Positions 2,800-5,205 of a stretch of 5,205 bases of DNA are shown here, piece by piece. Under the pieces are notes generated by a model. The model worked only from the letters and a program-made list of their open reading frames with translations, was not told where the DNA came from and searched no databases. The DNA comes from Gemmatimonadota bacterium (GTDB lineage: Bacteria > Gemmatimonadota > Gemmatimonadetes > Gemmatimonadales > Gemmatimonadaceae): contig CANJOX010000260.1 in NCBI GenBank assembly GCA_947475795.1, positions 1-5,205 of the forward strand. The letters are read 5' to 3'. A program made the translations under genes and the position numbers. How positions within the stretch are numbered: the stretch's first letter is position 1; the number at the start of each line of letters is the position of its first letter.

Positions 2800-2849
2800 G
2801 GAAAGTGCTGTCTCTCAGGGGTTTACGCGGGTTTTCCCCGAGATCACCC

Positions 2850-2876
2850 TTGACAGGTACGGACTTGTGACATAAA
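2850..2876 (+). promoter_or_regulatory. Possible sigma-70-type promoter for the 313-aa gene
   Basis: There is an exact TTGACA at 2850-2855, then 15 bases, then CATAAA at 2871-2876 (4 of 6 to TATAAT), preceded by TG at 2868-2869 as in an extended -10 element. The spacing is short, which the extended -10 could offset. Transcription would start near 2883 and leave a leader of about 200 bases before the ATG at 3091. The rest of the roughly 300-base divergent gap (2789-3090) holds a 12-bp palindrome (2975-2986), no convincing small gene, and no clear promoter for the minus-strand operon. Confidence 0.35.
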
Positions 2877-2974
2877 TGCGACAGTGACGACGGCGCAGGG
2901 CGGGCAGGGAGCACCCATCTTCCAACGGTTTGCGTCAGGGCCTGCGGTGCGGGAACGGCGACGGCTCCGCGGCA

Positions 2975-2986
2975 GGGGCATGCCCC
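2975..2986. repeat. Perfect 12-bp palindrome GGGGCATGCCCC
   Basis: The 12 bases equal their own reverse complement and sit in non-coding sequence between two divergent genes, downstream of the possible promoter at 2850-2876. It could be an operator for a dimeric regulator or a small leader hairpin. In GC-rich DNA such a palindrome can also be chance, and no second copy was seen in the window. Confidence 0.3.
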
Positions 2987-3081
2987 GGTCGTGATCGTCG
3001 GGTCATGCGAGACGAGGTCTGAGGCCTGTTCCGGCACCACGTCGGGTGGCGGACAGGGTACGGTTCGAGCGCTCCTTGCAC

Positions 3082-3086
3082 GGAGG
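3082..3086 (+). promoter_or_regulatory. Ribosome binding site GGAGG supporting the ATG at 3091
   Basis: GGAGG ends four bases before ATG 3091. The spacing is slightly short, but it is the strongest Shine-Dalgarno match near this gene and favours ATG 3091 over GTG 3046. Confidence 0.5.
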
Positions 3087-3090
3087 CTGG

Positions 3091-4032
3091 ATGCACGTCC
3101 TCACCCCAACAGCTGAACGTGATCGTGCCGCGAGGGATCTGGCCGCACTGGCCAGAGCCGCGCTGGACGACCACTGGGCTGTCGCCGCCATCCCCGCCGA
3201 ACGTCGCGCGCTGTTGCTGGAACGAGCCGATAGCGCTGCGCTTCGGCCGGGCGACGGGCTGGGTGAGCCGATCGCCGACGGACTCGCCCTGCTGGGGACG
3301 GCCTACGAACTGGCGGCCCTCGGCCAGCTCGAGACGGCGCTCCACCCCGCGCCCAGCGCCGCCCGCGATCTGGCGCAGGCGGTCCTCGCCCTCGGCGCCG
3401 CGCGCGCCTTCCGCTGCGCGGCGGCCCTCCGTCCCCCGACCGACGACGACGAATCGGCGCTCAAGTGGGCGCTCAAGGTGGGCGCCCTGGCGCTGGTGTC
3501 GCGTCAGACCGAGGCCTACGTCCGCTGGTGGGAGATCCGCACCCACGTGGCCCGCTCCGTCCGGCAGGCGGCACTGCGCTTCGAGCAGGAGCCCTGGGAA
3601 GCGTACGCCCGCGGCACGCTGTGGATGGCCTGGCTGGGACTGTTGGGGGCCCCCGTGGTCGCGCCGACCGAGTCGGTCGGCGACGAGCTGCCCGCGCTCT
3701 CCGCCACCCGCAACCGCCTCGCCGCGTTCCGCGAGCGGCGTGCCGATCACGACGTGCCCGGCGAGGGGCCGGTTCTGAACACGGCCGCCCTGCGCGCCCG
3801 GATGACCGAGTTCGCGATCCGGCACCTGGCCGACGCCACGGAGTTGCTCACCGTGGCCGTGCTGCGCCGGACCCTGCCCGATGTGTCGGGCGAGTTCAAG
3901 CTGCACCTGAGCGCGGCGCGCTCCGCCATGGCTGGCGATCATGGGCAGGACATCTTGCTGGCGTGGTTGCAAGCGGCCGGCGTTACGCTGGCTGGCGGCG
4001 TGACCGCCCAGCTCGAACTCCCAGGATTCTAG
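3091..4032 (+). CDS. Hypothetical helical protein, 313 aa
   Basis: I do not recognise this protein. The start chosen is ATG 3091, preceded by GGAGG at 3082-3086 with a short 4-base spacing. A GTG at 3046 is in frame and would add 15 residues but has no visible ribosome binding site. Third positions are very GC-rich throughout and the frame is uninterrupted to TAG at 4030-4032. The protein is almost wholly alpha-helical and rich in Ala, Leu and Arg, with no signal peptide, no long membrane span and no known catalytic motif. Tryptophans cluster in the middle: W126 in ALKWALKV, W146-W147 in VRWWEIRTH, W169 in EPWEAY, and W178 and W181 in TLWMAWLGLLG. The last stretch is the most hydrophobic (about 174-191). 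Near the C-terminus is DVSGEFKLHLSAA (264-276). Inferred: cytoplasmic, perhaps in a protein complex. Its last 50 bases overlap the convergent 138-aa gene, so the two may affect each other's expression. Confidence 0.75.
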   Translation: MHVLTPTAERDRAARDLAALARAALDDHWAVAAIPAERRALLLERADSAALRPGDGLGEPIADGLALLGTAYELAALGQLETALHPAPSAARDLAQAVLALGAARAFRCAAALRPPTDDDESALKWALKVGALALVSRQTEAYVRWWEIRTHVARSVRQAALRFEQEPWEAYARGTLWMAWLGLLGAPVVAPTESVGDELPALSATRNRLAAFRERRADHDVPGEGPVLNTAALRARMTEFAIRHLADATELLTVAVLRRTLPDVSGEFKLHLSAARSAMAGDHGQDILLAWLQAAGVTLAGGVTAQLELPGF

Positions 4033-4399
4033 TCTTCCCGCCCCGCGACGCGCCCTCGCTGGCGCGCCAGACGCGGAACACGCGGCGCCCGCTGCTGCCC
4101 ACCGGAAACGCCACCCGTCCGGCGCCGAGGGGCAGAATGTCGGCCATCATGGCACCAATGGCGACCCGGGTCGCCTCGGCCGCCCGCGCCTCATCCGCGC
4201 TGGCATGCTCCACCACCGACTCGGCCTCGATACGGAACCACGCGGCGCCATCCGGCCCGTCCACGCGCACCAGATACTCGTCGTCGCTGCCCCAGAACGC
4301 CGACATCCGCTCGCGATCCATGCCCATGTGGAAAGGCAGGGATGTGAGGGGGGCGGGTTCGAGCGAACCAATCGGGGCGTGGCAGGCGACGACGTGCAT
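3983..4399 (-). CDS. Hypothetical protein, 138 aa, convergently overlapping the upstream + gene
   Basis: I do not recognise this protein. The start ATG is at 4399-4397, with only a weak GGA about 9 bases upstream; M25, M27 and M32 are later alternatives. Codon use supports coding: third positions are mostly G or C from the start to about codon 121 (SRGGK), then lose that pattern over the last 17 codons, which overlap the opposing gene. Residues 33-61 (SAFWGSDDEYLVRVDGPDG, then AAWFRIEAES) look like beta strands, 62-90 like a helix (ASADEARAAEATRVAIGAMM), and 94-112 like strands again (GRVAFPV, RRVFRVWR). This suggests a small alpha/beta domain. There are two early cysteine/histidine residues (C6, H7) and no signal peptide. 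The tail (RAGRSRRQ) is basic. It is divergent from the ATP-grasp-like gene across the DnaA-box region. Confidence 0.65.
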   Translation of the reverse strand: MHVVACHAPIGSLEPAPLTSLPFHMGMDRERMSAFWGSDDEYLVRVDGPDGAAWFRIEAESVVEHASADEARAAEATRVAIGAMMADILPLGAGRVAFPVGSSGRRVFRVWRASEGASRGGKTRILGVRAGRSRRQPA

Positions 4400-4533
4400 G
4401 GGCGGTTTTCCGAAGGGGCAGAAACGTGAGCCTCGCTGTTTGGCCGCGGGGGCGTTCAGCGATGGGCGGGGATGTTATGACGATCCACGCGTCCACGCAA
4501 TACGACCAAAAGCCCCTAAGTTATTGACAGTGT

Positions 4534-4668
4534 TGTGGATATGCGTTGAGATCCGTGTGGATAACCTGCTAAGTGGCGGTCCGGTACCAGATCGGGATGC
4601 CACGGTTGTGGAAAAGTGGTTCCGTGACCCCACCGCTTTTTCCGGTCAGCAGGGGCGTGTTGTCCACA
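4534..4668. promoter_or_regulatory. Cluster of four DnaA-box-like 9-mers, candidate replication origin or DnaA-regulated region
   Basis: Compared with the DnaA box TTATCCACA, and reading the minus strand for the first three: 4542-4534 is ATATCCACA (8 of 9), 4564-4556 is TTATCCACA (exact), and 4615-4607 is TTTTCCACA (8 of 9, allowed by the relaxed consensus TTWTNCACA). The fourth, TTGTCCACA at 4660-4668, is on the plus strand (8 of 9). So three boxes point one way and one the other, within 135 bases of non-coding DNA of unusually low GC. Known: DnaA binds such arrays at oriC, at its own promoter and at titration sites. No dnaA, dnaN or other replication gene is visible in the window, so origin function is inferred from the boxes and composition. 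I found no clear DnaA-trio run. Confidence 0.65.
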
Positions 4669-4680
4669 TTCATTGAGATC
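4546..4680 (+). repeat. Direct repeat TTGAGATC, one copy beside each outer DnaA box
   Basis: TTGAGATC occurs at 4546-4553, three bases after the first DnaA-like box, and again at 4673-4680, four bases after the fourth. The copies are 127 bases apart, in the same orientation, and bracket the two middle boxes. Each contains GATC. They may be binding sites for a second protein, or chance. Confidence 0.35.
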
Positions 4681-4834
4681 ACAAAGTTGCTTTTTAGTGG
4701 CTTGCTCACACGGTCTGCTCGGCTGAAAATTTCCTCATCCTGGCGAACTCGTCGTTTCCGGTCATGAACCCGTGGTGGCCCATGGCGGCCGCCGTCCCCT
4801 TCGCGCATTGTCCCCTGATCGTGCGCACTTCACC

Positions 4835-4839
4835 AGGAG
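4835..4839 (+). promoter_or_regulatory. Ribosome binding site AGGAG favouring the GTG start at 4847
   Basis: AGGAG is followed by seven bases and GTG 4847, an ideal spacing. The in-frame ATG at 4853 would be 13 bases away, so GTG is the better start and adds two residues (Met-Ser) before MDPRIG. Confidence 0.6.
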
Positions 4840-4846
4840 CTCAGAC

Positions 4847-5205
4847 GTGTCGATGGACCCTCGAATCGGACTGCTTGTTGGCCGGGAATGGTCGTTTCCG
4901 CCTGCTTTTCTCGACGCGGTGGCCCGCCGGAAGGCCGGCGTCACGGCGGAGTACATCACGCTCGATGCGACGCGGATGGGGCAGGAGGTGCCTTACTCGC
5001 TGATCATCGACCGGATCTCGCACGAGGTCGGCTTCTACCGGACCTTCCTCAAGCATGCCACGCGCATGGGGACGACGGTCGTGAACAACCCGTTCATGTG
5101 GTCGGCCGACGACAAGTTCTACGACGCCACGGTGGCGATCCAGAACGGCGTCGCGCACCCGAAGACGATGGTGCTCCCCAACAAGGACTACATCCCGGGG
5201 ATCTC
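4847..5205 (+). CDS. ATP-grasp ligase-like protein (RimK / glutathione-synthase type), 3'-truncated
   Basis: The frame is open from GTG 4847 to the right edge and gives 119 residues. It begins with a strand, RIGLLVGRE (6-14), followed by a helix, PAFLDAVARRKAG, as in the pre-ATP-grasp domain. LIIDRISHEVGFYRTFLKHATRMG (52-75) resembles the segment where RimK-like enzymes have a strand plus Arg, then a helix ending in Gly. TTVVNNPFMWSADDKF (76-91) matches the conserved G-x-x-V-x-N-x-P followed by a D-K pair, and the next helix leads to GVAHPKTMVLP (101-111), like the G-x-x-x-P-x-T motif before the ATP-binding fold. Known: these enzymes join a carboxylate to an amine or thiol using ATP through an acylphosphate. 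The substrate cannot be told, because the ATP-binding and catalytic half lies outside the window. The DnaA-box region lies directly upstream. ATP-grasp membership is from motif pattern only. Confidence 0.75.
   Translation, partial: MSMDPRIGLLVGREWSFPPAFLDAVARRKAGVTAEYITLDATRMGQEVPYSLIIDRISHEVGFYRTFLKHATRMGTTVVNNPFMWSADDKFYDATVAIQNGVAHPKTMVLPNKDYIPGI

Follow-up and report, generated by a model that had tools for sequence, protein, structure and literature searches.

DnaA boxes act in several described settings away from, or in addition to, the chromosomal origin, oriC. In Bacillus subtilis, the small gene sda is directly activated by DnaA via several boxes, as described in excerpts of PMC4447404 and PMC8203912. 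In the Escherichia coli loci datA, DARS1 and DARS2, a conserved accessory element accompanies three to five boxes (excerpts of PMC4585315). The DnaA-box clusters (DBCs) of B. subtilis lie near oriC and are weakened on being moved to the terminus, and excerpts of PMC5010248 report that both datA and the DBCs lose function there. For Gemmatimonadota, we found no report of a DnaA site outside oriC among open-licence papers, which is weak evidence of absence. Here we analyze a 5,205-bp stretch of DNA, referred to as the window, in which a cluster of box-like 9-mers had been predicted to be either a chromosomal origin or a DnaA-controlled divergent promoter. Judged by its sequence and context, the array looks like a cell-cycle switch for a 138-aa gene, p138, and not like an origin.

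All four predicted boxes are present in the window. Box 1 (ATATCCACA, 4534-4542 (-)), the weakest of the four, lies closest to the predicted p138 promoter, box 2 (TTATCCACA, 4556-4564 (-)) is the exact match, and box 3 (TTTTCCACA, 4607-4615 (-)) is followed by box 4 (TTGTCCACA, 4660-4668 (+)) in inverted orientation relative to boxes 1-3. Spaced by 22, 51 and 53 bp, they are the only matches with up to one mismatch in the whole 5,205 bases. The view that they exceed chance held up, with none of 200 shuffles reaching four (mean 0.17, maximum 2); the background density of such matches was 0.041-0.065 per kb in sampled stretches of three relatives. The GC content of 4534-4668, estimated originally at about 51%, is in fact 57.0%, compared to 69.0% for the whole window. 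As noted originally, no dnaA gene was found among the window's open reading frames (ORFs). A plasmid origin was rejected, as positions 4400-4860 had no match in a plasmid collection.

Conservation of the array and its linkage to p138

Scanning genome contigs with a 119-residue fragment of the ATP-grasp-like gene that starts to the right of the boxes (4847-5205 (+), running off the window) identified 77 loci, the nearest belonging to Gemmatimonadota or Gemmatimonas metagenome-assembled genomes with up to 97% identity. We assign the window to a member of the Gemmatimonadaceae. Among the 25 closest loci (76-97% identity), the 600 bp ahead of the ATP-grasp gene contain three to five boxes in 23 and two in L008; L006, where the contig begins 234 bp before the gene, contains one. 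The other 52 loci, three of which have less than 600 bp of upstream sequence, contain no box (48) or one (4). We also searched 179 family genomes for the array itself. The spaced three-box pattern occurred in 29 genomes, once in each, and a fixed-spacing three-box search permitting up to three mismatches recovered 30, with zero matches for the backward control in either case. G057 and G073 each gave one extra three-mismatch match in the fixed-spacing search, overlapping the same array. The union of both searches places the array in 32 of the 179 genomes, with G011 and G070 contributed by the spaced-pattern search only and G003, G004 and G056 by the fixed-spacing search only.

The architecture of these 32 loci is nearly constant. 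Boxes 2, 3 and 4 are separated by 52/53 bp in 30 loci, by 53/53 bp in one and by 51/53 bp in one, while box 1, at up to one mismatch, lies exactly 22 bp from box 2 in 16 and 21 bp away in one more. Box 2 is exact in 15 loci, TT[TCG]TCCACA in 16 and TTATCAACA in one. Box 3 reads TTNTCCACA in 30, as does box 4 in all 32, the latter being imposed by the search pattern; at position 3 of boxes 2-4, all four bases occur. Mean column conservation was 0.94 for the boxes, 0.94 for an adjoining element, CAANNACTTA, 0.84 for the promoter block and 0.56 between boxes, calculated for 16 modal-length loci of the 19 remaining from a set of 25 (L002, L003, L004, L005, L007 and L019, which have a variant -35, drop out, and the set itself excludes the truncated L006). 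Alignment of the close loci revealed conserved blocks outside the boxes as well. All 19 measured loci have 165-167 bp between the -35 and box 4, and the distance from box 4 to the ATP-grasp start varied from 157 to 256 bp. Conservation of the boxes in relatives, suggested originally as a check, was strong.

To the left of the boxes, p138 (3983-4399 (-), 138 aa from a putative start codon) is the gene that stays with them; its homologue in G. aurantiaca T-27, GAU_1358, is listed at 111 aa. By eye, we predicted a p138 -35 hexamer, TTGCGT (4495-4500 (-)), in a motif, [T]ATTGCG[CT], that recurs in relatives, and, 17 bp from it, a -10 hexamer, TAACAT (4472-4477 (-)), conserved in the genus. The conserved element CAANNACTTA (4517-4526 (-); TAAGTTATTG when read on the (+) strand) recurs in remote relatives. 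It bears only a loose resemblance to an IHF/HU-type site and was the one IHF-like conserved element noted by eye; an HU-family gene was detected, one each, in three of three genomes. A TTGACA next to box 1 was considered as a rightward -35 and set aside, with no conserved -10 at the right distance.

With a p138 profile, 33 of the 179 genomes yielded strong homologues (E <= 3.4e-43), comprising the 32 array genomes and G059, where 132 bp of contig are left upstream of the gene. Ten further genomes contained remote homologues (E 1.6e-13 to 2.1e-6), and scoring 23 candidates per genome gave no match in the remaining 136. As these 136 genomes also lack the array, the module may not extend to the whole family. 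Upstream of the remote p138 genes, two to three boxes occur within 300 bp in nine of 11 copies and nine of ten genomes, against an expectation of 0.012-0.019 per 300 bp calculated from the sampled relatives; single boxes precede one of two G113 copies and the G075 copy. The outer boxes are 75-77 bp apart in five remote copies and 74 bp apart in most of the genus. When rows were aligned on the -35, box 1, CAANNACTTA and CTATTG[CT]GC could be seen in this order in eight of 11 remote copies. For L278, where the anchor had landed on a later TGTTGCG, the order was found further left in the row; no anchor was placed in L276 and L285, and the sequence of L276 displays the box 1, element and promoter order with CCATTGCGT. 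Conserved -35/-10-like sequence blocks likewise lie beside the boxes in relatives. The predicted DnaA boxes stay with one gene, p138, across relatives.

Neither Pfam nor NCBIfam contains a match to p138. Its AlphaFold2 model (mean pLDDT 67.8, pTM 0.42) retrieved nothing with Foldseek at E <= 0.001 (best 0.49). At least 564 of 8,000 candidate proteins scored at E <= 0.001 in a protein search, with names that were hypothetical or uncharacterized among the matches listed (120 of 564). The neighborhood yielded further observations. In the window, a conserved protein of ~313-328 aa (p328; 3091-4032 (+)) converges on p138 with overlapping 3' ends, had no match in Pfam or NCBIfam and is likewise kept in the genus. 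One locus of G113 (L282) contains two divergent p138 copies ~5.6 kb apart (2815-3186 (-) and at ~8.8 kb (-)), each preceded by the same promoter-like block and by one or two boxes. In two remote relatives, a Ku (DNA repair) gene lies across the boxes from p138 (L280:3725-4576 (+) and L283:1667-2518 (-)). ORFs of 340-390 aa beside remote p138 genes had no Pfam match, look like shadow frames and were discarded.

Position of the array on the chromosome

Three relatives with chromosome-size contigs were used to locate the array. In G058 (4,716,552 bp), the dnaA domain lies at 499 (+), the array at 1,819,309 (+) and a dif-like site at 2,121,495; the corresponding positions are 3,688,209 (-), 1,823,018 (-) and 1,421,889 in G057 (5,179,092 bp) and 449 (+), 1,630,514 (+) and 1,930,292 in G056 (4,636,964 bp). 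The array thus sits at 0.86, 0.82 and 0.84 of the dnaA-to-dif arm, respectively. The dif pattern by itself is not specific, as a backward control matched G058 twice; the same 26-bp dif-like sequence, with at most two differences, is present in five genomes. A scan for KOPS-like sequences yielded no usable signal. GC skew was sampled in G058 over 58 stretches (1.14 of 4.72 Mb), giving means of +0.022 from dnaA to the array (19 of 23 stretches positive), +0.017 from the array to dif (7 of 10) and -0.030 over the remainder beyond dif (4 of 25). The sign switches within ~20 kb of dnaA, with no switch at the array. For the same three segments, noisy values of +0.024, +0.027 and -0.016 (dnaA strand, 22 stretches) were obtained for G057 and of +0.010, +0.042 and -0.012 (20 stretches) for G056. 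In G075, skew was weak and dnaA lies outside its 20 sampled stretches.

Strict TTWTCCACA boxes numbered 12 in G057 and 18 in G058 (7 and 20 for the backward control), and across these two genomes the G057 array is the only place with two strict boxes within 300 bp of each other. With one mismatch allowed, the sampled stretches of G056, G057 and G058 each showed a pair or triple within 300 bp at the array. Elsewhere, G057 and G056 have one further pair apiece, and in G056 a box triple also adjoins the dif-like site. In G058, the 100 kb flanking dnaA on each side, a fully covered region, contain no pair within 300 bp, such that oriC itself lacks an obvious box cluster. At the other end of the arm, the dif-like site TGCGYATAATACATGTTATGTAAACY is followed within ~8 bp by GGTGGATAA[CG]TGTGGGAAA in five of five genomes, and CTGTCCACCTNNCCACAT lies ~190 bp past it in all five. 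These dif-adjacent sequences are DnaA-box-like pairs (L188, L189, L233, L234 and L235, representing G057, G058, G056, G007 and G069). A sequence shared by dnaA, the array and dif of G058, TTGCYAACACG (nine matches in 1.14 Mb, three of them at these sites), was not used, as by eye the other four genomes did not appear to conserve it at dif.

These data make it extremely unlikely that the array is the chromosomal origin, the first of the two roles initially proposed. The reading has points in its favor: like an origin, the array has several boxes in intergenic DNA; it is the only place with the spaced pattern in G057 and G058; no box pair flanks dnaA in G058; the denser box-like stretches of remote relatives lie at p138; and the raw extremes of sampled skew in G057 are displaced, the maximum (0.52 Mb) by 0.9 Mb relative to the dif-like site and the minimum by 0.25 Mb relative to dnaA. 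Yet dnaA, the dif-like site and sampled skew together place the origin 1.6-1.9 Mb from the array in all three relatives, skew in G058 keeps the same sign on both sides of the array, the arm means of G057 and G056 agree with it in sign, and dnaN directly follows dnaA in G057 and G058. The skew minimum expected at an origin is located away from the array, a result that applies to the relatives rather than to the window's own genome. For origin prediction, this carries a warning: the most obvious DnaA-box cluster in Gemmatimonas is not at the origin.

Candidate functions of the array

Relevant to the identity of the binding protein is the dnaA promoter, which in all 14 relatives examined (L175-L187 and the start of G058) has a single box lying across its predicted -35. 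The box is exact in 13 and TTGTCCACA in one, within TTGACTT[AG]TCCACA. The arrangement looks like autoregulation, with the overlap favoring repression there. Because the same 9-mer occurs in all 14 dnaA promoters, these 9-mers appear to be the group's DnaA site and DnaA is the likely binder. Some other protein is an improbable candidate. In its favor, all four bases occur at position 3 of boxes 2-4, and the genomes also encode a second protein with tandem DnaA-type AAA+ domains; against it stand the 14 promoters, the match to the DnaA-box consensus and the tandem protein itself, for which the Pfam matches listed (25 of 29) include no C-terminal DnaA DNA-binding domain. This ~580-590-aa protein with two such domains was found in 15 of 16 genomes searched (not G008), for example at L109:1486-3225 (+) and L110:265-2040 (-), the latter gene adjoining an ORF that by eye resembles a small GTPase.

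With moderate confidence, we interpret the array as an upstream, DnaA-bound control region of the leftward gene p138, probably an activating one. The interpretation builds on computed features: the boxes, their conservation and near-fixed spacing, their linkage to p138 and their distance from dnaA and the skew switch. Assuming a start 7 nt past the -10, the centers of boxes 1-4 are ~73, 95, 146 and 199 bp upstream of that start. Because all of them are upstream of the predicted -35, DnaA would most likely activate p138. DnaA, probably in its ATP form, would bind boxes 1-3 and the inverted box 4; spacings of 22, 51-52 and 53 bp (~2, 5 and 5 helical turns) would put the boxes on one face of the DNA, fitting a cooperative DnaA complex. 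A protein bound to CAANNACTTA might help in activation, and p138 output would track DnaA activity or replication status. We infer DnaA binding, the promoter and activation from the sequence. Weighing against this interpretation, box 1 is found with up to one mismatch at 22 bp in just 16 of the 32 loci, and linkage to p138 may reflect common descent of a short syntenic stretch, as p328 is also kept in the genus.

Of the divergent promoter originally predicted, the leftward half is retained, with boxes tied to p138, and the rightward half is not. Control of the ATP-grasp operon is very unlikely. The ATP-grasp gene adjoins the array in 30 of 32 loci, a full-length relative of it resembles the CPSase_L_D2 and RimK models (both below cut-offs), and CP_ATPgrasp, Peptidase_C26 and GCS2 genes come after it in relatives. 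However, in G060 and G062 only CP_ATPgrasp fragments of 37-87 residues are left beside an intact array, and ATP-grasp, Peptidase_C26 and GCS2 genes were not found near it in the 16.3-kb contig of G060 or the 20 kb searched of G062. The conserved right-hand flank (TCACAAA...TTGCTCACACG, 4679-4712 (+)) is also kept in these decayed loci (L080 and L082). We rejected ATP-grasp control because operons have decayed beside a kept array and because the 52 more distant homologues are array-free, and judge the gene to be a neighbor outside the unit. Persistence of the boxes beyond the operon also fits a site that titrates DnaA or switches its nucleotide, similar to datA, DARS or the B. subtilis clusters, which would tune replication timing with p138 as a mere neighbor. 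This possibility is unlikely but deserves consideration: the array is a box cluster outside oriC, its several boxes have near-fixed spacing, its relative position on the arm is similar in three chromosomes, a conserved non-box element adjoins its boxes, and an HU-family gene is present in three of three genomes. Conversely, it is situated near the terminus, a position in which excerpts of PMC5010248 describe a loss of function for datA and the B. subtilis clusters, and remote relatives keep a recognizable promoter and p138 beside it, neither of which a pure titration site needs.

The control region proposed for p138 could be part of something larger, which we regard as doubtful: a dedicated Gemmatimonadaceae replication-control module in which a late-replicating locus would serve to sense or reset DnaA and p138, as a new protein family, would feed back on initiation or division as the fork nears the terminus, the dif-side pairs forming a second arm. 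If regulation by DnaA is true, our data name a conserved, probably DnaA-controlled gene and offer a handle on replication-coupled gene expression in a widespread, little-studied phylum.

Comparison with known DnaA-box systems

The array shares with oriC several boxes in DNA less GC-rich than the surrounding genes (57% versus 69%) but its location disagrees with dnaA, the dif-like site and sampled skew, with no skew change at the array. Like the DBCs, it is a box cluster outside oriC; unlike them, it is terminus-proximal, the B. subtilis clusters being near oriC in excerpts of PMC5010248. Similarities to datA and DARS, as far as these are described in excerpts of PMC4585315, include the number of boxes, a candidate accessory element and a position relative to the origin that is similar between genomes. 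In contrast to these loci, the array is close to the terminus and has a predicted gene promoter attached, and its conserved element is a candidate IHF-like site. By analogy, the closest working counterpart appears to be Bacillus sda. As described in excerpts of PMC4447404 and PMC8203912, sda shares with p138 its small size, the several boxes that precede it, a location away from oriC and a candidate role as reporter of DnaA activity. They differ in that p138 is not recognizable as Sda (no family match) and belongs to a different phylum, that the spacing of the array is nearly fixed and that regulation of p138 is putative.
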